Of a stretch of 64,000 bases of DNA, positions 8,600 to 53,175 are shown piece after piece. Every line of letters begins with the position of its first letter. The stretch's first letter is position 1. The notes under the pieces were generated by a model. That model searched no databases and was not told the DNA's origin. It worked only from the letters and a program-made list of their open reading frames with translations. The translations under genes and the position numbers were made by a program. Where the stretch lies: NCBI GenBank assembly GCA_964023205.1, contig OZ026833.1:43617137-43681136 (forward strand), written 5' to 3'. This DNA comes from Lutraria lutraria (Eukaryota > Mollusca > Bivalvia > Venerida > Mactridae).

Positions 8600-9150
8600 C
8601 AAGAACATTATATCAAAATTCTTTCATACATAAGTTTCTATGATATAAAAATAGGACACAACGAAAGCGAAACTTAACTACATAGTTATTCTTTAGCATT
8701 AAAAAAACTTTCGAATTTAAACCATTAGGATAAAGAGTTTTGAGTTTATAAATCCTAAAGGTTTCTTCACAAAGGCGATTTTTAACGATATCAATAGGCA
8801 TAAAAGAAAAATCTGCCAATATATGAGAAGTGTCATTAAAATGTGTTGCAACCAAAGAGGAAAAAGCAGGAAAGCTGTAAAGTTACAAATATCATAGCTA
8901 TGATTATTCATACGTTTAGAAACGTTTTGTGTAGTCTGACCAACATATTGTTTTTTACATCTTTTACAGGTAATCAAATATATAACGTTCTTAGTTTTAC
9001 AGTTAGTATCAACACGTAATTGAAAGGTTTCGCCTGTGACTGAACTAGAAAAATCCGAACTATTGTTGATAGATTTGCAGTGAGTACATCTAGTACTACC
9101 ACAACTTCCAGACGAGTAAATGTTTTGGTCCGTTTTAGAAATATTTGTAC
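8600..9150 (-). pseudogene. PLE#1 GIY-YIG endonuclease remnant
   Basis: This is the endonuclease end of a Penelope-like element. On the minus strand a Cys-rich stretch CGSTRCTHCKS (about 9100) precedes VIYLITCKRCKKQYVGQT (about 8930-8980), which matches the GIY-YIG core of Penelope EN domains with a Y...YVG pair. After a frameshift the C-terminal part continues (THFNDTSHILADFSFMPIDI, then ETFRIYKLKTLYPNGLNSKV, to about 8700). In a live element this would nick DNA for insertion. The RT-side remnant lies at 10289-11060 on the same strand. Confidence 0.8.
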
Positions 9151-9155
9151 TAAAT

Positions 9156-10288: not shown

Positions 10289-11060
10289 CTACAATTTAAT
10301 AATGTTTTTGTTTCTCAAAAACGCGTAAAAGTGGGGGCTGTATTTGACAAAGACCGGCGCGGCAAAAACAAACCGGCGGAGGTTACTTGTTAAATAGTCA
10401 TGAAGGCTTTTAGGTCGTCTGAAAGCTAATATACGTTTAAAGAATTTATGAATATTTTTCACAGTAAAACTCGATGACAAACTCAAAAGGTCCCAATATT
10501 TATTGATTGTTGCACCAATGTCAGGAAGCGACGGATTGTATGTCATTGTGAACGGTATACCACGTGCCTTTTCTTGTGAAGATTGCTGCAAAGCATCCTC
10601 TTGCGACATCCGTGAAACTTTTTCAAATGCATCTTTGATGACGGAGTCCGGGTAATCCCTGTCCTTGACATAACGATGTAATTCACACAATGATTTACTG
10701 AAAATTTCATCATCCGAAATTATTCGTCGATAACGTTTTGCTTGACTAAAGGGTATTCCGTCTTTGCAGCGTTTTGGATGCGATGAACTGTACGGTAAAT
10801 ATTGGTGATTATCTGTTCTTTTGATATGAATGTCCGTCTTTATACTAAGATCAGTTCCTTTCGATACGGATACATCCAAGAAGGACACATTTTCTTTTGA
10901 TATGCTGTGGGTGAATTTAATTGTAGGATGCAATCCGTTTATCTGGTCTATAAATTATTGAAGGTCTTTCAAAGTGTGATCCCATATTAAAAATATATCA
11001 TCTAAGAAACGAAACCAACAAGTCGGTTTCTCTATATTTAAATATAGGATATATTTGTAT
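10289..11060 (-). pseudogene. PLE#1 reverse transcriptase C-terminal half
   Basis: This minus-strand remnant of a Penelope-like RT contains the catalytic motif C as CWFRFLDDIFLIWDHT (about 10985-11030). It is followed by an in-frame stop, then the linker to the endonuclease: SFLDVSVSKGTDLSIKTD, HPKRCKDGIPFSQAKRYRRI, IPFTMTYNPSLPDIGATINK and RRPKSLHDYLTSNLRR. The N-terminal RT half is missing above about 11060. Its endonuclease lies at 8600-9150, across the interrupting DNA. The homologous linker is present in PLE#2, where it is rearranged. Confidence 0.85.
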
Positions 11061-11884: not shown

Positions 11885-12434
11885 TTACTGGCAACTTATT
11901 GTTTCAAAGTATAACCTGTCATCATGTTTACATGTGATGTTTATTGTAGATATTGATTCAAGATGTTCAGACATGTATTTCACAGACTCCTTCAATGACT
12001 TCTCTATCTCCTCCACTGACAGTACACTGTGAGTTTCTCCATCAACTGATGTAATCTGACATCCATGTAACTCAACTTTTATATCAGAAATATTTACACA
12101 ACTTTCAATAAAACGATGAAAACATTGACGACTCATTGTGACAAACTCCAGCTTTATCTTCACTTGTGTTACCTGAGGATGTAGTTGTAATGAAACATCA
12201 TCAAGTAACTTCATGTACCACAGTTCTAGTGACTTGAGACATGGAAGAGATTTCACTGTAGACGTCAATGTTTTCATTGTTTTGTTATCTAACCTGTAGG
12301 AACCAATGATACAAAGATGTTCAAGTTGTGAATAATTCAAACAGTTAAATAAATCACTATAACAAAGTCTAACAATCCTATCAGATAATGTACACGTGAC
12401 GGACTGTAAACTAGAATTGTTTACATTGTTACAT
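11885..12434 (-). pseudogene. NLR exon 5, distal part (C-terminal LRR region)
   Basis: This is the distal part of the last coding exon, cut off from its proximal part by PLE#2. It reads open on the minus strand from the insertion point (NNVNNSSLQSVTC) to a TAA at 11885-11887. The sequence has irregular leucine-rich repeat spacing: LEHLCIIGSYRLDNKTMKTL, LPCLKSLELWYMKLLDDVSL, VTQVKIKLEFVTMSRQCF. The final segment is charged (SVEEIEKSLKESVKYMSEHL). It has no start of its own. It is in the frame expected if PLE#2 and one copy of the 8-bp target duplication are removed, so it is the true C-terminus of the gene rather than a separate one. Confidence 0.8.
12427..12434. repeat. PLE#2 candidate target-site duplication, left
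   Basis: TGTTACAT here matches TGTCACAT at 15968-15975 with one mismatch. The two octamers immediately flank the element. Confidence 0.6.
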
Positions 12435-12706
12435 TACAATACAGTTAAAACAACAACAACACGTGTTAAAAAATTCTTTATGTTTCTTAACGTTTCGGCA
12501 TTTAGCCTTCGTCAGAATAATACATAATAACAAACAACGGACGTGACGTCATGTAATATTTGACGTTACGTTAAAGGGCGGAATATATATTATATAAAAT
12601 AAAATAACATGCATGAATGAACAAACTAATGTGTCATTTAGAATTGAGTTATAGTACTATACGGATATAAAATACAAATATTTCCTATAGAATTATGATA
12701 TATAAA
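12435..12706 (-). repeat. PLE#2 pseudo-LTR, 3' copy
   Basis: Nearly identical to 15692-15967, from ATTACAATACAGTTAAAAC (the first bases may belong to the target duplication) to CCTATAGAATTATGATATAT. It includes a hammerhead ribozyme on the minus strand. Confidence 0.9.
12489..12567 (-). ncRNA. hammerhead ribozyme, PLE#2 3' pseudo-LTR
   Basis: On the minus strand AACGTC (12567-12562) provides stem III and the cleavage site after GUC. CTGACGA forms the first core strand. AGGC-TAAAT-GCC forms stem II, and GAAACGTT closes the core, with ACGTT pairing perfectly with AACGT. Stem I can form between ATTACAT just after the cleavage site and ATGTATTATT just before CTGACGA. All invariant core bases that I can check are present. 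Confidence 0.8.
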
Positions 12707-12779
12707 AACCGGTAATAGGAAAAAACGTGATAGTACCTAACTAAAACAAAAATTAAACATTTAACATGTATTTTATACT

Positions 12780-13198
12780 GTAAACAAGGTTTTTGAATTC
12801 ACACCGTTAGGATGAAGCGTTTGTAACTTATGTATCCAAAAAGTTTCCTTGCATAATCGATTAATATTATTGTTTATAACATCAACAGGCATAAAAGAAA
12901 AGTCGGACATATTATGAGTGCCTTCATTAAAGTGGCTAGCAACAAGAAAAGAAAATCCATCATTAGTAAAATTTATGATTATTCATACGTCGTGAAACCG
13001 GTTGCATTGTCTGGCCAACATATTGTTTTTGACATTTTTTACACGTTATTAAGTAAATGACATTTTTTGATTGACAATTACTATTATATTTTAAATCGAA
13101 TGTCCTTTTTGTGACGGAACTCGTAAATGTTGAACCGAAGTTGATTCTGGTACAGTGAGAACATCGTTTTTTATTACAACTCGTGCTGAAAAAATAGT
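12780..13198 (-). pseudogene. PLE#2 GIY-YIG endonuclease
   Basis: The minus-strand frame has a Cys/His cluster CNKKRCSHCTR (about 13155) and then VIYLITCKKCQKQYVGQT (about 13005-13060), the GIY-YIG core, followed by SRRMNNH. A frame change near 12970 leads to FLVASHFNEGTHNMSDFSFM and ETFWIHKLQTLHPNGVNSK, the usual C-terminal endonuclease block, ending near 12780. It is a close relative of the PLE#1 domain at 8600-9150. The role in a live element is DNA nicking during integration. Confidence 0.85.
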
Positions 13199-13383
13199 TT
13201 GGACGTTCAAGTTTCGAAAAATAAGTCTCTGAATGTTGAAACAAATATCTATATAAAGGAAACCAATAACCACCAATACTTGGATTATACATCGTGTCAC
13301 CCTAAGAAATGCAAAGATGGCATACCGTATAGCCAGGCTAAGAGATACCGACGTATAATATCGGATGACGATACATTTCAATC
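13198..13383 (+). pseudogene. PLE#2 RT-linker block, inverted
   Basis: The plus strand encodes LDVQVSKNKSLNVETNIYIK and HPKKCKDGIPYSQAKRYRRI followed by ISDDDTFQS. In PLE#1 (10289-10933) the same block lies on the coding strand, between RT motif C and the IPFT...NPSLPDIG block. Here it is flipped relative to the rest of PLE#2 and lies downstream of that block. ACATTTCAATC, at the end of this block (13373-13383), recurs in inverse orientation at 13603-13613 exactly where the coding-strand sequence resumes. Confidence 0.8.
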
Positions 13384-13394
13384 GTTATATGAAG

Positions 13395-15170
13395 GAGGTC
13401 CCAGTATCGATGTATGGTACTACCAATATCAGGTAAAGATGGATTGAATTCCACAGTAAATGGAATGATGCGTTTTTTCTCTGAGATTGTAGATGATAAT
13501 GCATCTGTTTGTGACGTCTGTGAAACTTTTGTAAAGGAATTGTCTATCACGGACATCGGGAAGTTTCTGTCTATGAAAAATTCACGTAGTTCGTCAAGCG
13601 AAGATTGAAATGTAATATGGTTTGGCGTTTCTTAAATTAATAAAGTCTTCCTCTAGTTTTCCCATAAATAGTGATGCATATGTAGGGGCCATTGAACTAC
13701 CCATTGCTGTACCCATTTTTTGTAAATAGAACTCTTTTCCAAATTTAAAATAATTATTTTCTAGAACAATACCAATAAGACGTGTAATTTCTTCAATCGA
13801 TAAGTTACTTCCATGTAGACCATTTTTTTCTAAAAACGATTTACAAGCGTTAATTCCATCATTGTTTGGAATATTAGTGTAGAGTGAAGATACGTCTAGT
13901 GTTACTAAATACGTGTTTTTTCTTAACTTCATATCTTTCACTTTATTTATAAAGCCAGTAGTATCTTTAACATATGATGGTAGATTTAACATATATGGTT
14001 TCAAAACATAGTCAATGTATTTGGAAATATTTTCAGTTGGTGAATTACAAGCTGATACAATCGGTCTCCCGGGATATTTTAATGGTAGATTATTATCCGG
14101 TGGTTTGTGGGTCTTCGGTAATATATAAAAACATGGAGTCCGTATGTTTGAAGGGAAAATATCGAATTCATTTTCAGTATTCATATCTTCCAAGCATCGT
14201 AAGATATCATGTTTAACAACGTCAGAAGGATCGTCGTTGCATTTTTCATAATATTGATCATTGTTCAATTGTCTCATTACTTCATTTTTATAATCATCAG
14301 TGTTCATGATTACAATCGTATTGGATTTGTCTGCTTTTTTTATCACAATATTTCTATTTTTAAATAATTTCTTAAGCGAGTCTAATTCAGCTTTAGTGAT
14401 ATTACTATAATATCCTTTTCTTTTCTTATCAGACTGCAAAATTTCTTCAGTAACGGCATTAATGTAAAAATCCAAGTAAACATCTCGGCCAGCGGGAGGG
14501 GTAAATGACGATTTAGATTTATTGAAAAACGGGAGGTCATGAAAACTGTCATTTGTTTCAGAGTCATTAACGTCATTTTCTGAATGATTACTAAAGAACT
14601 CTTTAAGTCTTAGTCTGCGGGTAAATTTAAAAATATCTTCTGCGAGTTTAATTTTGTCATGTGATTTAGATTTTGGGCAAAACTTTAAACCCTTCCCTAA
14701 GAGAATGTAATCATCGTCACTTAACTGAACTGAAGAGAGGTTTAGAACTGTCTTCTTTCCCGCCTGTATCTTTCGTAGCCTCCGCTTGGTTTTTCTCCAT
14801 GTCTTCTTGTCTCGTACTCGGATGAACCGCTTGGCGCCTTCTACAACTCTTGTCGTTGTGGCCGCTTGAAGATCCGTTATGGTCTTCATCAGGATTTGAA
14901 GAGTCTGATTGAGGGTTTGAATGTTCGCTGAGTGATTTGCCCCGTTCTTCACGGCTTTTGCGTAAGTTTTCTTTGTGCCCGGGGCTTGGACGTTTTTTGG
15001 ATGATTATTTGAAGTTATCGAATCCAAGAATTCTTCCTGTATCGGATGTGTATTCGACGTATGAACTGGGTTTTGTTCACTGCTGGTAACGTTCGTTGTT
15101 TCCGGTTTATCAACAGACTGTTGTCTTGTTGGTGCGACTTGTTGATTGTAATGTTTTCTTTTCTTCAGAT
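13395..15170 (-). pseudogene. PLE#2 Penelope-type reverse transcriptase
   Basis: A long open frame (about 13594-15170, starting without a clear ATG) encodes a Penelope RT. The order is IVIKKADKSNTIVIMNTDDY, CFYILPKTHKPP, GRPIVSACNSPTENISKYID, LPSYVKDTTGFINKVK, LVTLDVSSLYTNIPNNDGI (motif A) and YLQKMGTAMGSSMAPTYASL (motif B) followed by FMGKLEEDF. The next expected motif, C (a xLDD such as the FLDDIF of PLE#1), is absent. The frame jumps straight to TFQSSLDELREFF and IPFTVEFNPSLPDIGSTIHR (13606-13395). The catalytic core is therefore incomplete. Confidence 0.88.
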
Positions 15171-15671
15171 GTCTTTTTTGACGTCTAGTAGTATTTTTGG
15201 TCGCAATGTTTTTATCAATGTCCGTGATGATACTGACATCCGACTGTTCATTATAACACTTTTTTTAAAATACTGAGGTTTTTTTTCGTGTCGTAGAAGG
15301 ACAACATCCTTCTTCTTTTCTGTTCTTTCATGTATGTCTGCATCAATATTAAACATATCTTCATTCGTCTTCTCATGTCCAATTTCTTTCCTTGCTTCTT
15401 CTAACAGGCGACCGTATTCATTGGATCTCCGTAGGTGGTCTTCACGAATTCGCTCGCAAATGTCTGCGCTGACTTTCCATAGAAGTTTATCTACAGAGCG
15501 TTGTAGGTCTGATGCGTCGCGACCGACGTTCACCGTAAGTTTAAGACGAAGTCCTTTCGGAATCACATCCTCAGCTCTACAGTTGTCTAAGAATTTTGCA
15601 TGGAGCTGGCTCTTCATCTGTTTTTCCGCTAGTTGTTCTAAATTTCGCACACGTGGATCGGATGATGCCAT
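15165..15671 (-). CDS. PLE#2 N-terminal coding region (ORF1-like)
   Basis: A 168-residue frame starts at an ATG about 20 bp inside the 5' pseudo-LTR boundary. It is rich in charged residues: VRNLEQLAEKQMKSQLHAKF is probably helical or coiled-coil, then VIPKGLRLKLTVNVG, then an Arg/Glu-rich helix LLEEARKEIGHEKTNED. Penelope-like elements commonly carry such a charged N-terminal part before the RT. It ends at a stop next to the open start of the RT frame near 15170, so a single frameshift may separate what was one polyprotein. No enzymatic function can be assigned. Confidence 0.65.
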   Translation of the reverse strand: MASSDPRVRNLEQLAEKQMKSQLHAKFLDNCRAEDVIPKGLRLKLTVNVGRDASDLQRSVDKLLWKVSADICERIREDHLRRSNEYGRLLEEARKEIGHEKTNEDMFNIDADIHERTEKKKDVVLLRHEKKPQYFKKSVIMNSRMSVSSRTLIKTLRPKILLDVKKDI

Positions 15672-15691
15672 GTTGTTGAATGAGTGGTAAA

Positions 15692-15967
15692 ATTACAATA
15701 CAGTTAAAACAACAACAACACGTGTTAAAAATTTCTTTTTATGTTTCTTAACGTTTCGGCATTTAGCCTTCGTCAGAATAATACATAAGAACAAACAACG
15801 GACCTGACGTCATGTAATATTTGACGTTACGTTAAAGGGCGGAATATATATTATATAAAATAAAATAACATGCATGAATGAACAAATTAATGTGTCATTT
15901 AGAATTGAGTTATAGTACTATACGGATATAAAATACAAATATTTCCTATAGAATTATGATATATAAA
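15692..15967 (-). repeat. PLE#2 pseudo-LTR, 5' copy
   Basis: Partner of 12435-12706. Differences are a handful of substitutions and an extra TTT in the T-run near 15736. The high identity suggests a recent insertion or tandem-template origin. Confidence 0.9.
15750..15828 (-). ncRNA. hammerhead ribozyme, PLE#2 5' pseudo-LTR
   Basis: Same 79-nt arrangement as at 12489-12567: AACGTC at the 5' end (15828-15823), CTGACGA, AGGC-TAAAT-GCC, GAAACGTT at 15757-15750. The core is unchanged; differences lie only in the stem I/loop stretch (CAGGTCC and TTCTTATG against CACGTCC and TTATTATG). Confidence 0.8.
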
Positions 15968-15975
15968 TGTCACAT
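15968..15975. repeat. PLE#2 candidate target-site duplication, right
   Basis: TGTCACAT, differing at one base from TGTTACAT at 12427-12434. Confidence 0.6.
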
Positions 15976-17836
15976 AAAATATTAACATCCCACAGATATA
16001 ATGAAGTGAGTTCTGTATGTTGTGGAAGATTTAGAGTCAATGTACAGTCGTTATCATCACGTTGGTGATTAACACAAGACACACGAGACAAATTTATATT
16101 TTCAATGAGAACATTGTCAGACAGAAATTTCACCAGATAATGTAAACTGTTATGTTCTATTTTAACATAACACAGAGACAATGATGTCAGATGATGGAGA
16201 CTTCTCACAGGTAATTCTGGTATCAATGGTTTATCTGTACTTAGAATACCACCATCAATACAAACAGTGTGCAGTGTTGATTTATTCTGTAACATGCATT
16301 GAGTGAACTTTACATAATCAGCAGATGACACTCTAACAATATTTATACACTGCAGATTTTTTATCTGATCAAACTGATCAAAATATTCCCTTCTACCACA
16401 ATGTAAATATTTCACATTTGTTGTATTTAGCAATAAAAGTGTTCTCAAAATATCAACATTTTTGGAATATTCATCAAAAAGAAAATCTTCCATTCTTAAT
16501 TCAACAGTTTTATCATTAGATCTACTGACTTCCTTGAAACAATTAACAACAATATTCTGTAATGACTTGAGTTGATTTAGATAAGAATTACTGTAAGAAG
16601 TATTGTTATAGTGAAATAAAGCATTTTTCCTGCATGAAGTTAAATCATCTGATAATTGTAAGTAAATATTGTCAAACATACTTTTAATTCTATCATAAGA
16701 AAATCCAGCAAGTAAGTGAAAGAATTTTTTATATTGAACAACATCATTTAAACATTTCCATGTTTTAGTTACATCCCTAAATAAATTACTGGAGTCAAAT
16801 GATGATATAAACAATGCTGCGAAAAATTCTAGGTAACTTTCATGAATAAAACTGATCTTCAAGTTTTTGACAGAAAAACATTCAAAAACTTCATTTGTGC
16901 ACATGAGACCAATTTTACATAAAAAATCGATTTCTTCAATTGTAAAACAATATGGTTTAGATTGTAACTGTTGTCTACTAAAAACATCTCTAAGATATAT
17001 AAGAGTTCTGGTCATGCTGTCAAGTTTCTTTTCATACCATAAGACTACCAATTGAGATGCAATTATAGGGATGCATATTTCATCAGATAGACCACATTTC
17101 ACAATGTCAGATTTGAAAGCAGATGGCTTTCTTTCTGCAGAAAGTAACTTATTCATATAATTTATGATCTTTTCAATGTAACAGTCTAATGATTTCCCAT
17201 GAATTCCAGAAATTTCAATTTGATGATCAACATATTTACTCGACAGACCTGCAAGTTCTATTCGATATGGTCTGGACGTGGTGAGATAGATGCAATTTTT
17301 ACAGTGCTCTCTTTTTGGCAGTTCATGTGTCTTTTTCCCAACTTTCTTCGGATTCCACTCATCAAGGCCGTCAAAAATAATGAGACAATTATATTGTCTT
17401 AAAATATTTCGTATAGTGATAGGGTCATGGTGATCAAAATAACATTCTTTGATCATATCTACAACATGATAATGTTCAGTATCACGTAGATTTATATAAA
17501 ACACACAATCAAACTTAGACACATATTCGTATTCTTTATCTATCATTTGGCCACACTTAACATTACACCACAAGAAACACAGATGTCGACAGAAAGATGT
17601 TTTGCCAACACCTGCATCTCCAGTGATGTAGATTTCATTGTAGGCCTTATCCTCTTTGTAAAATATTTCTTCAAAACATTCAATTTCTTTAGCTTCCTTC
17701 TTTCCTTTAACAATGCTATTCATTGCAGGAGATTCATATAGGAGTAGAAGATCTGTATCTTTTTTTTCAAGCACCGGCAACACTGGCAAGGTCTTAAAAT
17801 GTCGCTGGTAGAAATCTGTGAGCACTGTCTGAATAT
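15968..17836 (-). CDS. NLR exon 5, proximal part: NACHT ATPase and first LRRs
   Basis: This exon starts after TTTCAG at 17837-17838; its first two bases AT complete the GAT codon begun by exon 4. Residues are counted from the GTG codon at 17825. FYQRHFKTLPVLPVLEKKD is a conserved linker. GDAGVGKTS (69-77, about 17595-17621) is Walker A, LIIFDGLDEW (148-157) is Walker B, and YLTTSRPYRI (180-189) is the sensor block. FIHESYLEFFAALF is the winged-helix end of the NACHT module. After it come irregular leucine-rich repeats (LHHLTSLSLCYVKIEHNSLH, LTSLYLWDVNIL). The family oligomerises with ATP on ligand sensing; the ligand is unknown. The frame is intact up to the PLE#2 insertion, which appends a few foreign residues and a stop, so this haplotype would lose the last 180 or so residues unless rescued. 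Confidence 0.88.
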
Positions 17837-21111: not shown

Positions 21112-21180
21112 CGCACTCAGTGTTTTCCATTTATCATCTGAGTCAGCCTCAGGTAAACGCAAATTATCACTATGCATCAG
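21112..21180 (-). CDS. NLR exon 3: end of HEPN domain
   Basis: A 69-bp exon (23 codons) between TATTTCAG and GTAAATTT, phase 0 at both ends. It begins LMHSDNLRLPEADSDDKWKT. Joined to exon 2, which ends RMCRND, it completes RNDLMH, the R-N-x-x-x-H signature of HEPN domains, split exactly at the splice junction. This supports the exon calls and suggests the HEPN active-site residues are retained. Confidence 0.85.
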
Positions 21181-22174: not shown

Positions 22175-22527
22175 ATCATTTCTGCACATCCTTAGTCTAG
22201 TGATATCAGCCTCTAAAGAGTAATCTAATGGTGCAGGATTATTTTTCCATACTTGATCTTTTGATGACTTTAAACCACATATGTTCCTCAGAAGACATGC
22301 CAATAATGAAATATCAAAATTTGATAGACACGGGTTGCCACTAACTGGTGGTAGTATCTTCTGCTGATCAGCGTTTATAACCTTCTTGGTTATCAAACTC
22401 TGAATGTCATTATTGTGAGCAGTCAGGAATTTCACCACATCATTAGCAGCAATACTATTCAATACCTGCCTCAGTACATCTGTACCAATCTGTACTAATA
22501 AATATTGATACCTGAAGACAAACATAT
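22175..22527 (-). CDS. NLR exon 2: HEPN domain, DZIP3-like
   Basis: A 353-bp exon between GATTTCAG (acceptor) and GTAAGCAT (donor). Its first two bases complete a GAT codon with the G that ends exon 1. It encodes YLLVQIGTDVLRQVLNSIA, then LITKKVINADQQKILPPVSG, NFDISLLACLLRNICGL, and SLEADITRLRMCRND. This wording matches the DZIP3-type HEPN domain that occurs N-terminal to NACHT in molluscan NLR-like proteins as I know them. The catalytic signature is completed by exon 3. HEPN domains often bind or cut RNA; activity here is inferred only. Confidence 0.85.
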
Positions 22528-22939
22528 CTGAAATCAAACAGAGTTCAATTTAAATAATGTGCATAACGGGAACACAATTATAGTCACTCTGTTACAGAGC
22601 ATGTTTAATCCAATTGGTCATTCAATATACTACATAATTTATGTATTACTTTAATACTACAAGGTTTTGCATCTTTCATTTTTAAGGCACCACAAGTAGG
22701 TTGACAGATTTACATTATTTTTATTAAATCATAATACACTCGGTCCCCCATTGTCATATAGCAAAGCAAACACAGTGTGAACCAAATAAATTGTGAATGT
22801 CAACCGTTGATTTATTTTTTAAGTCAACCAATATGGTTGATCCCTTTGTTGTTGTGTTCATTATACGATGATGTGGCAAGCATACTGTACAAAGTATGAA
22901 GTAGAAATATAGCCTTCAAATTCAAAGTTTTAAATTAAA

Positions 22940-24236
22940 CAACAAGAGGGCCAAGATGGCCCTATATCGCTCACATGACAATCACTGTTCACTCATTAAA
23001 ACATTGTTTTGAACCGGTGACCTAGTTTTTGACCCCAGATGACCCATGTTAGGACTTGTCCTACATATAAATAAGACAAACATTCTGACAAAATTTGGTG
23101 AAGATCCAATCAAAACCATGAAAATTACAGCATAGACAAAGTTTTCCTAAGATTTGACCTCGTGACCTAGTTTTTTCACCCCAGACGACCTATGTTCGAA
23201 TTTGTCTTACATATCATTAAGACAAACATTTTGACTAGGTTTGGTGAAGATATGATCAAAATTTGACATCTACAGTGTTAATAAGGTTTTCCTAAGATTT
23301 GACATTGTGACCTGGGTTTTGACCCTAGGTGACCCATATTTGAACCTTAATATCATTAAGACAAACAATCTGACAAGGTTTGGCCAAGATCCAATTAAAA
23401 CAATGACATTTAGAGCTTTTACAATATTTTTACCTAAGATTTGACCTGGTGACCCTGTTTTTGACCCCAGCTGACCCTTGTTCAACCTTGACCCACATAT
23501 CATTGAGGCAAACATTCTGAAAAGGTTTGGTGAAGATCCAATTAAACTGTAAAATCTACAGTGTTAACAAAGTTTTCCTAAGATTTGACCTGGTGACCTA
23601 GTTATCTACCCCAGATGACCCATATTTATACTTGAATATTATTTCATTAAAACAAACGATTTGACAAAGTTTGGTGAAGATCAAATAATAACTGTGAAAT
23701 CTACAGTGTTAACATGGTTTTTCATAAGATTTGACATAGCGACCTAGATGACCCATGTTCGAAATCGTCCAAGATATTATGAAGACAAACATTCTGACAA
23801 GGTTTCATGATCATCCAATCAAAACAGTGACTTCTAGAGTGTTCACAATGTTTTCCAGCAATTTGCCCTAGTGACCTAGTTTTTCACCGGAAATGACCCA
23901 TTATCAAACTTGGCCTACATATTATTAAAATAAACATTCTGACAAAGTTTCATGAAGATCCAGTCAAAACAATGATTTCTAAAGTGTTCCCAAGGTTTTC
24001 ACTTTTTGGCCCTGGTGACCTAGTTTTTTACCCCAAATGGCCCAATATCGAACTCGTCCGAGATTTTGTTGATATTAACGTTCTGACCCAGTTTTGCAAA
24101 AATTGAGAAAAAAATTGTGCCCCCCTAGTGTGGTCACAACATAAAGTTTGACGACGCACCACGCACACCGCACGACGCCGGACGGAGAGATCCTAATAGC
24201 CTACTTTGTCACTTTGTGACATGTGAGCTAATAAAA
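22940..24236 (+). repeat. dispersed AAGAGGGCC repeat, copy 3, with 144-bp internal repeats (intron 1)
   Basis: The left end AACAAGAGGGCCAAGATGGC and the right end CTTTGTGACATGTGAGCTAA mark the same family as 20095-21004. Inside are about eight imperfect repeats of a module containing GTGACCTAGTTTTTGACCCC and GACAAGGTTTGGTGAAGATC. GTGACC occurs at 23017, 23162, 23307, 23449 and 23593, a period of 142-145 bp. Near the right end is a GC-rich stretch GACGACGCACCACGCACACC. Confidence 0.85.
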
Positions 24237-24392
24237 ATGCATGTTCTATATTGTTCAAATAATTTCTAAATCACCTTTTATTTCACTTAAATATTTCATA
24301 CAGGTATTGAAAGGAAATTCAACTAGATGGTTTGGTTAATTAGATACAAAGATCATTTTCCAATTATTCATTTATTATGAGAAATCTCTTAC

Positions 24393-24573
24393 CTGCTGGG
24401 CCAGGATTTTGTTCAATACCAGCCAATATTAACAACAGTCTTACAAAACAAACTGTCCCTATCATTTTTATCAACACACTAAAGTTGACATAGAATGGTA
24501 TAGATGAGCCAGAACCATGACAGGGAACAAACATTCCCACCCTGCTCCTATATACATCTAGTTCAACACCCAT
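24393..24573 (-). CDS. NLR exon 1: leader with 2A-like motif
   Basis: The first coding exon ends at the donor CAG|GTAAGA (GT at 24392-24391) in phase 1. Two in-frame starts are plausible: ATG at 24573 (A at -3, G at +4; a possible acceptor CACTTTCAG lies 13 bp upstream) or ATG at 24465 (A at -3). The shorter form reads MIGTVCFVRLLLILAGIEQN followed by PGPA, a hydrophobic leader followed by a 2A-like ribosome-skipping motif, GIEQNPGP (24397-24420). The consensus is D-[VI]-E-x-N-P-G-P; here the first Asp is Gly. The HEPN domain starts immediately after in exon 2. Similar hydrophobic 2A leaders are known on sea-urchin NLR proteins, where they can act as signal sequences when skipping fails. Confidence 0.75.
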
Positions 24574-24579
24574 ATTCAG

Positions 24580-25184
24580 TCCTGAAAGTGAGCATAACAT
24601 GAATTGTACATAAATATTATAGTGAAGCATATATATATATATATAATGTTTAGGAAGTAGCAAAGGAAGACCTACTTTATTTCCCTGTCCTCACATCTTT
24701 TATAAGTGACGTATCTTATTGACGTATCGCAGTGACTTTGTACTTAACACGTGATGTACAGGTGAAGTTGTATTTGTTCAATGTCCTTGTATGGAGAACT
24801 TTGATTTTTGTTTAACTGCAACAACGTAGAATGGTATTCATTTGTACATATGTACTCCCCGTATTTTCTGAAACATGTTACTGTACGGATATCGACAAAG
24901 GTCTGATAATCCTCAGGGAATTTATTTATAGCCCTTATTTCAACTGCCATGGTGTTCACCATTGTCATTATTTTATGTTTCGAGCTTCAATTCCCGAAGT
25001 AACATTGGCACATGTGTTGAAGGACTCGTTATTTGGAGGACCTTGCTTTCGCTGACTAGAATTCCGGCGAGGCAATTAGCCAACCGGCTGTTCAAATCAC
25101 ATGATCTGGACGGATCATTACGGCTGTGACCAGAACAGATATCAGACAAAGACCTGCAACGGACTTGACACTACTTAAGTTGTT
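24580..25184. promoter_or_regulatory. NLR upstream region, boundary to the satellite
   Basis: About 600 bp between the first coding exon and the satellite. It should hold the promoter and perhaps an untranslated first exon, since CACTTTCAG before 24586 looks like a splice acceptor on the minus strand. An (AT)n run lies near 24630-24645. No definite TATA box or start site can be named. Confidence 0.35.
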
Positions 25185-28100
25185 TTGTAAACGAAAAATA
25201 TTTCATTTCTAGTACAGGATATTCCGGTGATAGTAATTCATGCATGACTTACACGTGACTTGACGTGCTAAAGATGACAAGAATGTGACGTAACCAGAAG
25301 CATAATTAGGCATTGTTCTTTATTGTCTTACTAGATTGATGCTAGTAAAATATATATTACTATATATAATCGACTTTATCTCTGATATTATATTGAAATG
25401 AGATTGTGCGAGATTTCAAAATTAGATGTTTAGTGAAAGTCTTCACATAGAAGTGCAAAAATGGAAATTTTATGAAGCCTTATTTGTTTTGCATCGATAA
25501 TTTAAGTATTCAATGATCAATACAATGTACTAAGATGAAGAGTTAGAACTATTTAATATACAAATCGACTTCATGCATGTTTTTTAGATATGAATTTGAA
25601 GACAGGATAATAAAATGATTGTACTTCAAAATGATTTCAAAAATGACTTGACGTGTTCTAGATGAAGATAAACAAGGCCATAAGTTAGAGAATAAAAGTT
25701 AGAAATTATTATTTAACTATTTTTGAAATTTTCGAGCGGTCAAATGTATATAACATTTTCATGTCACTAAATTAACAGAGAAAAGGGAAAATGCTGAATT
25801 CTAAGTTAGGCACTTTATTAAAGCTTTCACCTATAAGCACACGAATGACAACTTTATTGCTATCGTATTAATCATCATATTCAGGTGAATTAAATTGTTT
25901 TTAAATAATGGGTTCAAAACTCGAATTTATGTATGTTAATGTATCGCAGAATGTATTAGTTCAATGCATGATATTCCCATGATAGTATTTCATGCATGAA
26001 TATACACCTAACTTGACGTGTTCAAGATGACAAAAATATGACATTAAATGAAACATAGTTAGCATTGTTGCAGGACGTGTTTTAAAAAGAAGGGTCGGCA
26101 TTTTACGTGAATGTTCATGAAACAGTAAAAAGAAAATGTTTAAAATAACGTAGAAAAGGGTTTATTCTGGATCGCAAAGTAACGTTTTGTTAAAACGCAC
26201 ACACCTGATACCTCATGAATGACAACCCGACTGCTACCGCATAAATAATTATGATTATTTAGGTGAATTAATGTTTTAATAGATAAAGGGTTGAGGCTTA
26301 TAAATTAAAAAATCGACTTTATGTATGTTATTGTATCGAAAAAGATGTCATTTCTAGTACAGGATATTCCGGTGATAGTAATTCATGCATGACTTTACAC
26401 TTGACTTGACGTGCTAAAGATGACAAGAATGTGACCTAACCAGAAGCATAATTAGGCATCGTTCTTTGTTGTCTTACTAGAGTGATGCGAGTAAAAATAT
26501 ATATTACTATATATAGTCGACTTCATCTCTGATATTATATTGAAATGAGATTATGCGAGATTTCAAAATTAGATGTTTAGTGAATTTCTTCACATAGAAG
26601 TGCAAAATGAAAATTTTATGAAGCCTAATTTGTTTTGCATCGATAATTTAAGTATTCTGTGGTCAACACAATGTACTAAGATGTAGAGTTAGAACTATTT
26701 AATATACAAATCGACTTTATGCCTGTTTTTTTAATATGAATTTGAAGACAGGATAATAAAATGATTGTAATTCTAAAATGATTTCAAAAATGACTTGACG
26801 TGTTCTGGATGAAGATAAACAAGGCCATAAGTTAGAGAATACAAGTTAGAAATTATTATTTAATTATTTTTGAAATTTCCGAGCGGTCAAATGTATATAA
26901 CATTTTCATGTCTCTGAACTAACAGAGAAAAGGGATAATGCTGAATTCTAAGTTAGGCACTTTATTAAAGCTTTCACCTATAAGCACACGAATGACAACT
27001 TTATTGCTATCGTATTAATCATCATAAATATTCAGGTGAATTAAATTGTTTTTAAATAATGGGTTCAAAACTCGACTTTATGTACGTTAATGTATGGCAA
27101 AATATATTAGTACAATGCATGATATTCCCATGATAGTATTTCATGCATGAATATACACCTGACTTGACGAGTTCAAGATGTCAAAAATATGACATTAAAT
27201 GAAACATAGTTAGCATTGTTGCAGGATGTTTTATAAAACAAAAATGCCATCGAAGGGTCGGCATTTTACGTGAATGTTCATGATACAGTAAAAAGAAAAT
27301 GTTAAAATAACACAGAAAATGGATTATTCTGGATCGCAAAGTAACGTTTAGTTAAAACGCACATACCTGATACCTCATGAATGACAACATGACTGCTACC
27401 GCATAAATAATTATGATTATTTAGGTGAATTAATATTTTAATAGATAAAGGGTTGAGGCTTATTAATTAAAAAATCGACTTTATGTATGTTATTGTATCG
27501 AAAAAGATGTCATTTCTAGTACAGGATATTCCGGTGATAGTAATTCATGCATGACTTTACACTTGACTTGACGTGCTAAAGATGACAAGAATGTGACCTA
27601 ACCAGAAGCATAATTAGGCATTGTTCTTTGTTGTCTTACTAGAGTGATGCGAGTAAAAATATATATTACTATATATATTCGACTTTATCTCTGATATTGT
27701 ATTGAAATGAGATTATGCGAGATTTTAAAATTAGATGTTTAGTGAATGTCTTCACATAGAAGTGCAAAATGAAAATTTTATGAAGCCTAATTTGTTTTGC
27801 ATCGATAATTTAAGTATTCTGTGTTCAACACAATGTACTAAGATGTAGAGTTAGAACTATTTAATATACAAATCGACTTTATGCCTGTTTTTTTAATATG
27901 AATTTGAAGACAGGATAATAAAATGATTGTAATTCTAAAATGATTTCAAAAATGACTTGACGTGTTCTAGATGAAGATAAACAAGGCCATAAGTTAGAGA
28001 ATAAAAGTTAGAAATTATTATTTAATTATTTTTGAAATTTTCGAGCGGTCAAATGTATATAACATTTTCATGTCTCTGAACTAACAGAGAAAAGGGATAA

Positions 28101-31100
28101 TGCTGAATTCTAAGTTAGGCACTTTATTAAAGCTTTCACCTATAAGCACACGAATGACAACTTTATTGCTATCGTATTAATCATCATGAATATTCAGGTG
28201 AATTAAATTGTTTTTAAATAATGGGTTCAAAACTCGAATTTATGTACGTTAATGTATGGCAAAATATATTAGTTCAATGCATGATATTCCCATGATAGTA
28301 TTTCATGCATGAATATACACCTGACTTGACGTGTTCAAGATGACAAAAATGTGACATTAGATGAAACATAGTTAGCATTGTTGCAGGATGTTTTATAAAA
28401 CAAAAATGCCATCGAAGGGTCGGCATTTTACGTGAATGTTCATGATACAGTAAAAAGAAAATGTTAAAATAACACAGAAAATGGATTATTCTGGATCGCA
28501 AAGTAACGTTTAGTTAAAACGCACATACCTGATACCTCATGAATGACAACCTGACTGCTACCGCATAAATAATTATGATTATTTAGATGAATTAATATTG
28601 TAATAGATAAAGGGTTGTGGCTTATCAATTCAAAAATCGACTTTATGTATGTTATTGTATCGAAAACGATGTCATTTCTAGTACAGGATATTCCGGCGAT
28701 AGTAATTCATGCATGACTTTACACTTGACTTGACGTGCTTAAGATGACAAGAATGTGACCTAACCAGAAGCATAATTAGGCATTGTTCTTTGTTGTCTTA
28801 CTTCAGTGATGCGAGTAAAAATATATATTACTATAATATATTCGACTTCATCTCTGATATTATATTGAAATGAGATTATGCGAGATTTCAAAATTAGATG
28901 TTTAGTGAAAGTCTTCACATAGAAGTGCAAAAATGGTAATTTTATAAAGCCTAGTTTGTTTTGCATCGATAATTTAAGTATTCTATGTTCAATACAATGT
29001 ACTAAGATGAAGAGTTAGAACTATTTAATATACAAATCGACTTTATGCCTGTTTTTTAAATATGAATTTGAAGACAGGATAATAAAATGATTGTAATTCT
29101 AAAATGATTTCAAAAATGACTTGACGTGTTCTAGATGAAGATAAACAAGGCCATAAGTTAGAGAATAAAAGTTAGAAATTATTATTTAATTATTTTTGAA
29201 ATTTCCGAGCGGTCAAATGTATATAACATTTTCATGTCTCTGAACTAACAGAGAAAAGGGATAATGCTGAATTCTAAGTTAGGCACTTTATTAAAGCTTT
29301 CACCTATAAGCACACGAATGACAACTTTATTGCTATCGTATTAATCATCATGACTATTCAGGTGAATTAAATTGTTTTTAAATAATGGGTTCAAAACTCG
29401 ACTTCATGTATGTTAATGTATCGCAGAATGTATTAGTTCAATGCATGATATTCCCATGATAGTATTTCATGCATGAATATACACCTAACTTGACGTGTTC
29501 AAGATGACAAAAATATGACATTAAATGAAACATAGTTAGCATTGTTGCAGGATGTTTTAAAAAGAAGGGTCGGCATTTTACGTGAATGTTCATGATACAG
29601 TAAAAAGAAAATGTTTAAAATAACGTAGAAAAGGGTTTATTCTGGATCGCAAAGTAACGTTTTGTTAAAACGCACATACCTGATACCTCATGAATGACAA
29701 CCTGACTGCTACCGCATAAATAATTATGATTATTTAGGTGAATTAATATTTTAATAGATAAAGGGTTGAGGCTTATTAATTAAAAAATCGACTTAATGTA
29801 TGTTATTGTATCGAAAAAGATGTCATTTCTAGTACAGGATATTCCGGTGATAGTAATTCATGCATGACTTTACACTTGACTTGACGTGCTAAAGATGACA
29901 AGAATGTGACCTAACCAGAAGCATAATTAGGCATTGTTCTTTGTTGTCTTACTTCAGTGATGCGAGTAAAAATATATATTACTATAATATATTCGACTTC
30001 ATCTCTGATATTATATTGAAATGAGATTATGCGAGATTTCAAAATTAGATGTTTAGTGTAAGTCTTCACATAGAAGTGCAAAAATGGAAATTTTATGAAG
30101 CCTTATTTGTTTTGCATCGATAATTTAATTTTTCTATGTTCAATACAATGTACTAAGATGAAGAGTTAGAACTATTTAATATACAAATCGACTTTATGCC
30201 TGTTTTTTAAATATGAATTTGAAGACAGGATAATAAAATGATTGTAATTCTAAAATGAGTTCAAAAATGTCTTGACGTGTTCTAGATGAAGATAAACAAG
30301 GCCATAAGTTAGAGAATAAAAGTTAGAAATTATTATTTAATTATTTTTGAAATTTTCGAGCGGTCAAATGTATATAACATTTTCATGTCTCTGAACTAAC
30401 AGAGAAAAGGGATAATGCTGAATTCTAAGTTAGGCACTATATTAAAGCTTTCACCTATAAGCACACGAATGACAACTTTATTGCTATCGTATTAATCATC
30501 ATGAATATTCAGGTGAATTAAATTGTTTTTAAATAATGGGTTCAAAACTCGACTTTATGTATGTTAATGTATCGCAGAATGTATTAGTTCAATGCATGAT
30601 ATTCCCATGATAGTATTTCATGCATGAATATACACCTGACTTGACGTGTTCAAGATGACAAAAATGTGACATTAAATGAAACATAGTTAGCATTGTTGCA
30701 GGATGTTTTATAAAACAAAAATACCATCGAAGGGTCGGCATTTTGCGTGAATGTTCATGATACAGTAAAAAGAAAATGTTAAAATAACACAGAAAATGGA
30801 TTATTCTGGATCGCAAAGTAACGTTTAGTTAAAACGCACATACTTGATACCTCATGAATGACAACCTGACTGCTACCGCATAGATAATTATGATTATTTA
30901 CTATAGGTGAATTAATATTTTAATAGATAAAGGGTTGAGGCTTATTAATTAAAAAATCGACTTTATGTATGTTATGGTATCGAAAAAGATGTCATTTCTA
31001 GTACAGGATATTCCGGTGATAATAATTCATTCATGACTTTACACTTGACTTGACGTGCTAAAGATGACAAGAATGTGACCTAACCAGAAGCATAATTAGG

Positions 31101-34100
31101 CATTGTTCTTTGTTGTCTTACTAGAGTGATGCGAGTAAAAATATATATTACTATATATATTCGACTTTATCTCTGATATTGTATTGAAATGAGATTATGC
31201 GAGATTTCAAAATTAGATGTTTAGTGAATGTCTTCACATAGAAGTGCAAAATGAAAATTTTATGAAGCCTAATTTGTTTTGCATCGATAATTTAAGTATT
31301 CTGTGTTCAACACAATGTACTAAGATGTAGAGTTAGAACTATTTAATATACAAATCGACTTTATGCCTGTTTTTTTAATATGAATTTGAAGACAGGATAA
31401 TAAAATGATTGTAATTCTAAAATGATTTCAAAAATGACTTGACGTGTTCTAGATGAAGATAAACAAGGCCATAAGTTAGAGAATAAAAGTTAGAAATTAT
31501 TATTTAATTATTTTTGAAATTTCCGAGCGGTCAAATGTATATAACATTTTCATGTCTCTGAACTAACAGAGAAAAGGGATAATGCTGAATTCTAAGTTAG
31601 GCACTTTATTAAAGCTTTCACCTATAAGCACACGAATGACAACTTTATTGCTATCGTATTAATCATCATGAATATTCAGGTGAATTAAATTGTTTTTAAA
31701 TAATGGGTTCAAAACTCGAATTTATGTACGTTAATGTATGGCAAAATATATTAGTTCAATGCATGATATTCCCATGATAGTATTTCATGCATGAATATAC
31801 ACCTGACTTGACGTGTTCAAGATGACAAAAATGTGACATTAGATGAAACATAGTTAGCATTGTTGCAGGATGTTTTATAAAACAAAAATGCCATCGAAGG
31901 GTCGGCATTTTACGTGAATGTTCATGATACAGTAAAAAGAAAATGTTAAAATAACACAGAAAATGGATTATTCTGGATCGCAAAGTAACGTTTAGTTAAA
32001 ACGCACATACCTGATACCTCATGAATGACAACCTGACTGCTACCGCATAAATAATTATGATTATTTAGATGAATTAATATTGTAATAGATAAAGGGTTGT
32101 GGCTTATCAATTCAAAAATCGACTTTATGTATGTTATTGTATCGAAAACGATGTCATTTCTAGTACAGGATATTCCGGCGATAGTAATTCATGCATGACT
32201 TTACACTTGACTTGACGTGCTTAAGATGACAAGAATGTGACCTAACCAGAAGCATAATTAGGCATTGTTCTTTGTTGTCTTACTTCAGTGATGCGAGTAA
32301 AAATATATATTACTATAATATATTCGACTTCATCTCTGATATTATATTGAAATGAGATTATGCGAGATTTCAAAATTAGATGTTTAGTGAAAGTCTTCAC
32401 ATAGAAGTGCAAAAATGGTAATTTTATAAAGCCTAGTTTGTTTTGCATCGATAATTTAAGTATTCTATGTTCAATACAATGTACTAAGATGAAGAGTTAG
32501 AACTATTTAATATACAAATCGACTTTATGCCTGTTTTTTAAATATGAATTTGAAGACAGGATAATAAAATGATTGTAATTCAAAATGATTTCAAAAATGA
32601 CTTGACGTGTTCTAGATGAAGATAAACAAGGCCATAAGTTAGAGAATAAAAGTTAGAAATTATTATTTAATTATTTTTGAAATTTCCGAGCGGTCAAATG
32701 TATATAACATTTTCATGTCTCTGAACTAACAGAGAAAAGGGATAATGCTGAATTCTAAGTTAGGCACTTTATTAAAGCTTTCACCTATAAGCACACGAAT
32801 GACAACTTTATTGCTATCGTATTAATCATCATGACTATTCAGGTGAATTAAATTGTTTTTAAATAATGGGTTCAAAACTCGACTTCATGTATGTTAATGT
32901 ATCGCAGAATGTATTAGTTCAATGCATGATATTCCCATGATAGTATTTCATGCATGAATATACACCTAACTTGACGTGTTCAAGATGACAAAAATATGAC
33001 ATTAAATGAAACATAGTTAGCATTGTTGCAGGATGTTTTAAAAAGAAGGGTCGGCATTTTACGTGAATGTTCATGATACAGTAAAAAGAAAATGTTTAAA
33101 ATAACGTAGAAAAGGGTTTATTCTGGATCGCAAAGTAACGTTTTGTTAAAACGCACATACCTGATACCTCATGAATGACAACCTGACTGCTACCGCATAA
33201 ATAATTATGATTATTTAGGTGAATTAATATTTTAATAGATAAAGGGTTGAGGCTTATTAATTAAAAAATCGACTTAATGTATGTTATTGTATCGAAAAAG
33301 ATGTCATTTCTAGTACAGGATATTCCGGTGATAGTAATTCATGCATGACTTTACACTTGACTTGACGTGCTAAAGATGACAAGAATGTGACCTAACCAGA
33401 AGCATAATTAGGCATTGTTCTTTGTTGTCTTACTTCAGTGATGCGAGTAAAAATATATATTACTATAATATATTCGACTTCATCTCTGATATTATATTGA
33501 AATGAGATTATGCGAGATTTCAAAATTAGATGTTTAGTGTAAGTCTTCACATAGAAGTGCAAAAATGGAAATTTTATGAAGCCTTATTTGTTTTGCATCG
33601 ATAATTTAATTTTTCTATGTTCAATACAATGTACTAAGATGAAGAGTTAGAACTATTTAATATACAAATCGACTTTATGCCTGTTTTTTAAATATGAATT
33701 TGAAGACAGGATAATAAAATGATTGTAATTCTAAAATGAGTTCAAAAATGTCTTGACGTGTTCTAGATGAAGATAAACAAGGCCATAAGTTAGAGAATAA
33801 AAGTTAGAAATTATTATTTAATTATTTTTGAAATTTTCGAGCGGTCAAATGTATATAACATTTTCATGTCTCTGAACTAACAGAGAAAAGGGATAATGCT
33901 GAATTCTAAGTTAGGCACTATATTAAAGCTTTCACCTATAAGCACACGAATGACAACTTTATTGCTATCGTATTAATCATCATGAATATTCAGGTGAATT
34001 AAATTGTTTTTAAATAATGGGTTCAAAACTCGACTTTATGTATGTTAATGTATCGCAGAATGTATTAGTTCAATGCATGATATTCCCATGATAGTATTTC

Positions 34101-37100
34101 ATGCATGAATATACACCTGACTTGACGTGTTCAAGATGACAAAAATGTGACATTAAATGAAACATAGTTAGCATTGTTGCAGGATGTTTTATAAAACAAA
34201 AATACCATCGAAGGGTCGGCATTTTGCGTGAATGTTCATGATACAGTAAAAAGAAAATGTTAAAATAACACAGAAAATGGATTATTCTGGATCGCAAAGT
34301 AACGTTTAGTTAAAACGCATATACTTGATACCTCATGAATGACAACCTGACTGCTACCGCATAGATAATTATGAATATTTACTATAGGTGAATTAATATT
34401 TTAATAGATAAAGGGTTGAGGCTTATTAATTAAAAAATCGACTTTATGTATGTTATGGTATCGAAAAAGATGTCATTTCTAGTACAGGATATTCCGGTGA
34501 TAATAATTCATTCATGACTTTACACTTGACTTGACGTGCTAAAGATGACAAGAATGTGACCTAACCAGAAGCATAATTAGGCATTGTTCTTTGTTGTCTT
34601 ACTAGAGTGATGCGAGTAAAAATATATATTACTATATATATTCGACTTTATCTCTGATATTGTATTGAAATGAGATTATGCGAGATTTCAAAATTAGATG
34701 TTTAGTGAATGTCTTCACATAGAAGTGCAAAATGAAAATTTTATGAAGCCTAATTTGTTTTGCATCGATAATTTAAGTATTCTGTGTTCAACACAATGTA
34801 CTAAGATGTAGAGTTAGAACTATTTAATATACAAATCGACTTTATGCCTGTTTTTTTAATATGAATTTGAAGACAGGATAATAAAATGATTGTAATTCTA
34901 AAATGATTTCAAAAATGACTTGACGTGTTCTAGATGAAGATAAACAAGGCCATAAGTTAGAGAATAAAAGTTAGAAATTATTATTTAATTATTTTTGAAA
35001 TTTCCGAGCGGTCAAATGTATATAACATTTTCATGTCTCTGAACTAACAGTGAAAAGGGATAATGCTGAATTCTAAGTTAGGCACTTTATTAAAGCTTTC
35101 ACCTATAAGCACACGAATGACAACTTTATTGCTATCGTATTAATCATCATGAATATTCAGGTGAATTAAATTGTTTTTAAATAATGGGTTCAAAACTCGA
35201 ATTTATGTACGTTAATGTATGGCAAAATATATTAGTTCAATGCATGATATTCCCATGATAGTATTTCATGCATGAATATACACCTGACTTGACGTGTTCA
35301 AGATGACAAAAATGTGACATTAGATGAAACATAGTAAGCATTGTTGCAGGATGTTTTATAAAACAAAAATGCCATCGATGGGTCGGCATTTTACGTGAAT
35401 GTTCATGATACAGTAAAAAGAAAATGTTAAAATAACACAGAAAATGGATTATTCTGGATCGCAAAGTAACGTTTAGTTAAAACGCACATACCTGATACCT
35501 CATGAATGACAACCTGACTGCTACCGCATAAATAATTATGATTATTTAGATGAATTAATATTGTAATAGATAAAGGGTTGTGGCTTATCAATTCAAAAAT
35601 CGACTTTATGTATGTTATTGTATCGAAAACGATGTCATTTCTAGTACAGGATATTCCGGCGATAGTAATTCATGCATGACTTTACACTTGACTTGACGTG
35701 CTTAAGATGACAAGAATGTGACCTAACCAGAAGCATAATTAGGCATTGTTCTTTGTTGTCTTACTTCAGTGATGCGAGTAAAAATATATATTACTATAAT
35801 ATATTCGACTTCATCTCTGATATTATATTGAAATGAGATTATGCGAGATTTCAAAATTAGATGTTTAGTGAAAGTCTTCACATAGAAGTGCAAAAATGGT
35901 AATTTTAGAAAGCCTAGTTTGTTTTGCATCGATAATTTAAGTATTCTATGTTCAATACAATGTACTAAGATGAAGAGTTAGAACTATTTAATATACAAAT
36001 CGACTTTATGCCTGTTTTTTAAATATGAATTTGAAGACAGGATAATAAAATGATTGTAATTCAAAATGATTTCAAAAATGACTTGACGTGTTCTAGATGA
36101 AGATAAACAAGGCCATAAGTTAGAGAATAAAAGTTAGAAATTATTATTTAATTATTTTTGAAATTTCCGAGCGGTCAAATGTATATAACATTTTCATGTC
36201 TCTGAACTAACAGAGAAAAGGGATAATGCTGAATTCTAAGTTAGGCACTTTATTAAAGCTTTCACCTATAAGCACACGAATGACAACTTTATTGCTATCG
36301 TATTAATCATCATGACTATTCAGGTGAATTAAATTGTTTTTAAATAATGGGTTCAAAACTCGACTTCATGTATGTTAATGTATCGCAGAATGTATTAGTT
36401 CAATGCATGATATTCCCATGATAGTATTTCATGCATGAATATACACCTAACTTGACGTGTTCAAGATGACAAAAATATGACATTAAATGAAACATAGTTA
36501 GCATTGTTGCAGGATGTTTTAAAAAGAAGGGTCGGCATTTTACGTGAATGTTCATGATACAGTAAAAAGAAAATGTTTAAAATAACGTAGAAAAGGGTTT
36601 ATTCTGGATCGCAAAGTAACGTTTTGTTAAAACGCACATACCTGATACCTCATGAATGACAACCTGACTGCTACCGCATAAATAATTATGATTATTTAGG
36701 TGAATTAATATTTTAATAGATAAAGGGTTGAGGCTTATTAATTAAAAAATCGACTTAATGTATGTTATTGTATCGAAAAAGATGTCATTTCTAGTACAGG
36801 ATATTCCGGTGATAGTAATTCATGCATGACTTTACACTTGACTTGACGTGCTAAAGATGACAAGAATGTGACCTAACCAGAAGCATAATTAGGCATTGTT
36901 CTTTGTTGTCTTACTTCAGTGATGCGAGTAAAAATATATATTACTATAATATATTCGACTTCATCTCTGATATTATATTGAAATGAGATTATGCGAGATT
37001 TCAAAATTAGATGTTTAGTGTAAGTCTTCACATAGAAGTGCAAAAATGGAAATTTTATGAAGCCTTATTTGTTTTGCATCGATAATTTAATTTTTCTATG

Positions 37101-53160: not shown

Positions 53161-53175
53161 GATATTTTCTTTAAA
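53161..53175. repeat. LINE target-site duplication, left
   Basis: GATATTTTCTTTAAA, identical to 55038-55052. Confidence 0.85.

Follow-up and report, generated by a model that had tools for sequence, protein, structure and literature searches.

A probable ribosome-skipping 2A-like leader in a large family of bivalve HEPN-NACHT-LRR receptors

In the bivalve Lutraria lutraria, genes of a large HEPN-NACHT-LRR receptor family carry a separate exon encoding a leader that ends in a 2A-like motif. This leader is probably a StopGo/2A element and a standing part of the family, ribosome skipping being the reading that explains it best. The gene structure, the family-wide presence of the leader, and protein-level selection that is strongest at the 2A positions are all seen in the sequence, and from these patterns a skipping leader is very likely to be a feature of the family as such. 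The window, by which we mean the whole stretch of 64,000 nucleotides that was analyzed, corresponds to C1:43617137-43681136 of the 728.5-Mb assembly.

Structure of the gene in the window

The gene model and the features associated with it are as follows (a slash marks a splice junction):

24574..24583, minus strand: probable 3' splice site of a 5'-UTR intron, TTTCAG/GACTGAAT-ATG, read by eye
24393..24573, minus strand: coding part of exon 1, a 60-codon leader MGVELDVYRSRVGMF...VCFVRLLLILAGIEQNPGPA, ending in phase 1, with a GT donor at 24392-24391
24397..24420, minus strand: StopGo/2A core GIEQNPGP, with predicted release after Gly and the receptor resuming at Pro
22175..22527, minus strand: exon 2, first and main part of HEPN_DZIP3 (Pfam, tblastn)
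21112..21180, minus strand: exon 3, end of HEPN, 23 codons
19742..19997, minus strand: exon 4, linker, coiled-coil-like by eye, tblastn-supported
15969..17836, minus strand: first part of exon 5, NACHT and start of the LRR, frame open as far as the insertion (Pfam, tblastn)
12433..15967, minus strand: putative Penelope-like retroelement in the LRR exon, with terminal direct repeats and an RT-like ORF
11885..12432, minus strand: remainder of the LRR exon, from 3' of the insertion to the stop of the gene, matching nine Mactra C-terminal parts

Exon 1 (24573-24393, minus strand) translates to MGVELDVYRSRVGMFVPCHGSGSSIPFYVNFSVLIKMIGTVCFVRLLLILAGIEQNPGPA. Its 3' boundary reads CCA GCA G/GTAAGAG (24393), the acceptor of exon 2 at 22527 reads TTTGATTTCAG/AT, and the two exons in one frame give ...NPGPADMFVFRYQYLL, running into the HEPN_DZIP3 domain. 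Joined, the five exons amount to 909 codons with zero stops, and all four introns are GT-AG. Within this one gene, HEPN_DZIP3 (E 1.7e-22, 80.2 bits vs. a cut-off of 27) and NACHT (E 9.8e-14, 52 bits vs. a cut-off of 26.7) both exceed their Pfam cut-offs, and tblastn with bivalve relatives gives matches at the leader and at exons 2 (HEPN), 4 (linker), and 5 (NACHT). The call of exon 3 comes from its splice sites and phase and from how it fits into the alignment of the proteins; no tblastn match of its own with bivalve relatives was found at the locus. The LRR was identified from weak Pfam support together with homology to Mactra C-termini. The HEPN RNxxxH motif (RN-DLM-H) straddles the junction of exons 2 and 3 and satisfies the RNase motif Rx4-6H, and its residues R144, N145, and H149 are invariant (9/9) in the protein alignment.

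The first-pass annotation of this DNA had proposed that the leader of exon 1 is spliced in frame onto the HEPN domain, and the 909-codon stop-free model, the phase, and tblastn all bear this out. The range that it gave (22175..24573) stops within the gene, and it missed a likely 5'-UTR acceptor, TTTCAG/GACTGAATATGG, close 5' of the ATG; a pre-Met stretch resembling such an acceptor was found in several of the paralogues sampled. Around the first Met of exon 1, position -3 is A and position +4 is G, and the first Met of two Mactra proteins (P0002 and P0012) aligns to it by tblastn. Intron 1 contains a degenerate 145-bp tandem repeat of 7.3 copies (window 23008-24044).

The 2A core

GIEQNPGP is the sole match to (D/G/C/N)(V/I)ExNPGP in the six frames of the window, and the core pattern appeared in 0 of 200 first-order-Markov random windows; for NPGP alone the window has two occurrences, against 0.125 expected. 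Genome-wide, a degenerate DNA pattern for (G/D/E)(V/I/M)ExNPGP has 229 exact sites, against one for the reversed pattern. A chance motif is ruled out by the random windows and by the genome-wide pattern set against its reversed control. By hand count, the 100 core sites listed of the 229 comprise 77 D-type, 21 G-type, and two E-type sites.

A 2026 survey broadens the StopGo motif to (D/G/C/N)(V/I)ExNPGP, a definition that covers the window core, and reports Gly at the p12 position to be as prevalent as Asp (PMC12846837). The survey also describes L-rich upstream motifs in viral StopGo, among them motif 5, which has its (A/G/S)G end at p12 and favors Pro at p15; the motifs assayed were 1, 3, 4, and 6, excluding motif 5, which is the L-rich class with G at p12, and chimeric 2As were often inactive (PMC12846837). 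The LLLILA-G of the window agrees with the wording for motif 5, a comparison made by description, in which p15 differs (Gln in the window vs. the preferred Pro).

Gly in place of the consensus Asp had been taken, on first pass, as a reason to leave the efficiency of the element in question. The substitution is indeed present, but as a sign of low efficiency it does not stand: Gly is a regular functional variant (PMC12846837), and by itself it therefore gives no reason to expect low efficiency. The idea that the Gly core is a damaged 2A is ruled out by the survey and by the presence of Gly in 10 of 10 aligned leaders.

The window copy within a dispersed repeat

The same annotation had taken the window gene for a HEPN-NACHT-LRR receptor and missed a retroelement in it, so that a correction is needed: this copy is not a complete receptor gene. 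A putative Penelope-like element cuts the LRR exon, and the gene is one of eight near-identical dispersed copies. The exon is interrupted at 15967 and the LRR reading picks up at about 12432, with the result that the window copy has no intact C-terminal LRR region. That the insertion is a Penelope-like element is suggested by its RT, by the repeats at its ends, and by a stretch that to the eye resembles GIY-YIG. The terminal direct repeats (15967-15692 and 12706-12433) are identical in 270 of 276 alignment columns, and the RT-like ORF (15264-13594) scores 24.8 bits for RVT_1, under the cut-off of 29.6.

Seven further copies, on C7, C9, C11, C16 (two), C18, and C46, are 99.0-99.9% identical to the window copy over 3.35 kb. 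This identity includes the introns, so the near-identical copies spread by DNA. Five of the sister copies (one of the two on C16 and those on C7, C9, C11, and C18) were compared over 40 kb each, and all five match across window 6.6-28.8 kb, the retroelement region included, with indels of up to about 4 kb; the outermost matches, at window 3.5 kb in the C18 copy and at 51.2 kb in the C11 copy, coincide with the limits of the fetched sequence. The NACHT exon is frameshifted in four of these five sampled copies, the one on C18 keeping exon 5 open, and the frameshifted C7 copy also has a broken core, GNEQNPGP. An intact receptor at the window locus is ruled out by the retroelement in the LRR exon and the decay of the sister copies. 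The window gene is thus carried within a large dispersed repeat and is in decay; the evidence at the level of the family comes from the arrays and from Mactra.

The window contains several other elements. Just upstream of the gene is a tandem array with a unit of roughly 1160 bp and about 13 copies (25175-40555), the copy number of which apparently differs between the dispersed copies, based on offset BLAST diagonals. A GIY-YIG domain (E 1.5e-6) and a neighboring ORF with no Pfam match (8717-9154 and 10289-10954, minus strand) are perhaps a second Penelope-like remnant. Also present are a 33-bp minisatellite of about 56 copies (6645-8445), open in several frames on both strands, a tRNA-Ala (TGC) call (47471-47544, minus strand), and a partial reverse transcriptase (53175-53615, plus strand) that is LINE-like by guess.

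Leader and HEPN exons across the genome

The HEPN exon has at least 150 scored matches in the genome, mostly on C18 and C19, and the leader has at least 148 (at E up to 1). Of the 148 leaders, 126 are followed on the same strand by a HEPN exon at a distance of up to 15 kb (median 756 bp). Conversely, a same-strand leader exon lies upstream of 124 of the 150 listed HEPN exons, vs. 0 in the opposite-strand control; these 124 were paired by position, not all of them being read as sequence, and include recent and decayed copies. No leader was detected upstream of the other 26 listed HEPN exons. A one-locus accident is ruled out by this pairing and by the tblastn matches of the relatives.

We read the sequence upstream of 21 paralogous HEPN loci (L029-L044 and L046-L050), which were hand-picked for spread and are the only basis for the share of intact cores: 14 have an intact core, three a decayed one, and four no leader in the fetched stretch. 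For one of those four (L029), positional pairing places a leader 12 kb up. Likely working genes lie in the arrays on C18 and C19. Leaders are lost or decayed in some paralogues and in some Mactra relatives, and thus the receptors can do without one.

Two further sets of matches deserve mention. Among the sites listed, eight clustered G-type cores (GVEPNPGP, GVESNPGP) fall at C17:22.72-23.00 Mb, and seven weak leader matches in that region (E 0.015-0.13) have none of the listed HEPN exons downstream; the cluster may represent another gene family that carries a 2A leader. Tandem leader-like matches occur at C4:13.108-13.116 Mb (eight) and C9:36.707-36.710 Mb (four). They end before or inside the core, with stop codons in 7 of the 12, which suggests decayed or otherwise used leader arrays.

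The leader in Mactra antiquata and other relatives

A search with the gene model returned 11 proteins, seven of them from Mactra antiquata, and two more searches raised the number from this species to 13; a region search with P0005 brought in only one Mactra protein. The protein search relatives would place the origin of the sequence in a bivalve. The motif G(I/V)ExNPGP stands directly before HEPN in nine of the 13 Mactra relatives. P0017 has no N-terminus, and of the 12 Mactra proteins in which it is present, three have lost the core (P0006, P0007, and P0015, which start MAGIASNPGT, MAGVDPDLT, and MAGVSPTDN). None of the other 72 of the 85 proteins found matches the core or NPG(P/T) patterns. 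In the Mercenaria relatives P0008 and P0020 no leader was seen (P0008 starts late), and a PDB search with P0005 gave no match at E 0.01.

Across ten leader-bearing proteins (mean identity 44%), six of the eight core positions are invariant, one admits V or I alone, and x varies freely. These ten are the window and nine Mactra proteins chosen for NPGP, the invariance of which is by construction; beyond NPGP, the core's G and E do not vary either. Only eight of 901 eight-residue windows are as conserved, one of them being the core and the other seven covering Walker A and Walker B. The spacer after NPGP differs in both length and sequence among relatives.

In a tree built without the leaders, the leader label needs two changes, and the tree is best read, as far as these sequences go, as a leader present early and lost twice. 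Leader-bearing proteins are on several branches, with P0003 among the deepest; the fork there is poorly settled, and close to it are the two Mercenaria proteins in which no leader was seen. The clustering of leaders on the tree is nonsignificant, given that 102 of 500 label shuffles need as few changes.

Selection on the leader

For 18 leaders read as DNA (the window, 14 intact, and three decayed: L035, L044, and L049), pN/pS rises with distance from the core: it is 0.13 for the core itself, then 0.30 (codons -10..0), 0.55 (codons -20..-10), and 0.84 (codons -30..-20). These values are descriptive averages, as the compared pairs have common ancestry and synonymous changes outside the core are close to saturated. 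In the 15 intact leaders core pN/pS is 0.058, although this set (like another of 12) was picked by the intact-core pattern, which lowers the value by construction. The gradient is what a nascent-chain element acting in the exit tunnel should leave. On this evidence the leader is a shared, selected feature of the family. The original observation of a 2A-like leader directly on a HEPN-NACHT-LRR receptor has thus held up, by conservation in the bivalve family and by protein-level selection.

Proposed mechanism and alternatives

While the leader is being made, its L-rich tract together with G(I/V)ExNPG would sit in the exit tunnel. The Gly-Pro bond would be skipped, the leader released, and the receptor restarted at Pro (PADMFVFRYQ...). 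Most of the receptor would then be cytosolic and leaderless; in a small share of molecules, made without skipping, the leader would stay attached, and these may end up in the secretory pathway or in a membrane. The window copy is a retroelement-interrupted relative, distinct from the working gene. We infer skipping itself, its efficiency, and any second location.

An incomplete skip could also be the purpose of the design, in which case the unskipped leader would be a signal or anchor and the skipped-to-unskipped ratio would set cytosolic vs. secretory or membrane targeting. Such a design has been proposed for sea-urchin NLRs, and two destinations from one mRNA were also suggested on first pass; we regard this dual-targeting switch as a tentative possibility. 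It is favored by hydropathy (the best 11-residue Kyte-Doolittle mean is 2.1-3.2 in 22 leaders, one of them decayed), by pN/pS <1 for 20 codons above the core, and by the sea-urchin precedent, where a P3A mutant of the leader sends a reporter to the Golgi (PMC4981915). However, of the 15 intact own-genome leaders 13 have a basic residue within their hydrophobic stretch, as do four of nine Mactra leaders, and the stretch begins about 33 residues in, if the start is the first Met of exon 1. The hydropathy of the leader permits, short of showing, a signal or anchor.

Termination at the 2A without resumption is rather unlikely as the main outcome. The leader exon would then limit receptor synthesis, perhaps under translation stress. 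Release without resumption is one of three outcomes named for sea-urchin 2As, and control by stress via eEF2 is proposed (PMC4981915), but the present data do not separate this outcome from full skipping. That the leader is simply an N-terminal signal or anchor, with NPGP there by chance and no skipping, is very improbable; the N-terminus is indeed hydrophobic, yet constraint falls on the 2A core positions, and the spacer after NPGP is variable. Least probable is a relic of a non-LTR retrotransposon 2A, captured as an exon and now without function: such elements are known to carry 2As (PMC4981915), and the 77 of 100 listed core sites that are D-type are scattered, several of them identical, as retrotransposon 2As might be, but a relic should keep neither a low core pN/pS across paralogues nor the same core in the window and Mactra. 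The scattered D-type sites are probably 2A-bearing retrotransposons, and these are a possible source of the leader, which would then be a retrotransposon 2A later put to use.

Returning to skipping as the preferred reading, an extension that we consider improbable is that the whole NLR family (>100) needs it for the mature N-terminus, as a sensor reading ribosome behavior. If true, this would possibly make the family the most extensive case of StopGo in cells. The skipped/unskipped ratio, or else the leader peptide once freed, would serve as a readout of the cell's own translation machinery, and a pathogen that disturbs elongation or release would alter receptor location or amount.

Comparison with known systems

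The closest parallel is SpNLR2A of Strongylocentrotus purpuratus, which also has an N-terminal hydrophobic leader ending in 2A before NACHT-LRR and belongs to a multigene family (Roulston et al. 2016, PMC4981915). A 2A at the N-terminus of an NLR, as in SpNLR2A-type signals, is likewise found here. There, a leader of like build gave about 80% skipping in vitro, and both skipping and secretory targeting were assayed. The N-terminal domain is HEPN_DZIP3 here vs. DEATH in SpNLR2A (a comparison by description), the core has Gly vs. the D of the motif as given in PMC4981915, and the leader of the window is about 60 codons on its own exon vs. 26 residues. Scale and phylum also differ, with 124 leader-linked HEPN exons in one bivalve genome. 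The differences in N-terminal domain and core residue point to a separate assembly of the sea-urchin and bivalve leaders, which we consider plausible.

By description, the leaders resemble viral motif 5 StopGo (PMC12846837) in the core (D/G/C/N)(V/I)ExNPGP, the L-rich stretch, and (A/S)G at p11-p12. They differ in being cellular and N-terminal rather than inside a viral polyprotein, and in p15, which is mostly Gln (own genome) or Arg (Mactra) vs. Pro.

The receptors themselves resemble those of the pearl oyster Pinctada fucata, for which PMC9646362 reports >50 NACHT proteins with N-terminal HEPN_DZIP3. The likeness extends to the N-terminal DZIP3-like HEPN with Rx4H, NACHT, LRR, and large clustered expansions. 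In the passages of that paper on these proteins a 2A leader goes unmentioned, and NPGP and "2A peptide" are absent from its text (PMC9646362). Among the literature matches listed, there was no paper on 2A in mollusc NLRs.

Non-LTR retrotransposons bearing 2A, and 2A cores in animal genomes, were reportedly described by Odon and colleagues in 2013. Those 2As are reportedly in proteins of mobile elements and have a D-type motif, vs. a receptor leader here. Such retrotransposons are not known to be linked to HEPN receptors.

The sea-urchin NLRs are a precedent, but the bivalve case is set apart from them by its phylum and effector domain as well as by the core residue and the scale. A second phylum, another architecture, a Gly core, and 124 leader-linked exons in one genome would mean that 2A and NLR were joined more than once in animals or have been kept together for a very long time. 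Intact, decayed, and lost leaders occur side by side in one genome, and the role of skipping in innate immunity can therefore be tested on natural variants.
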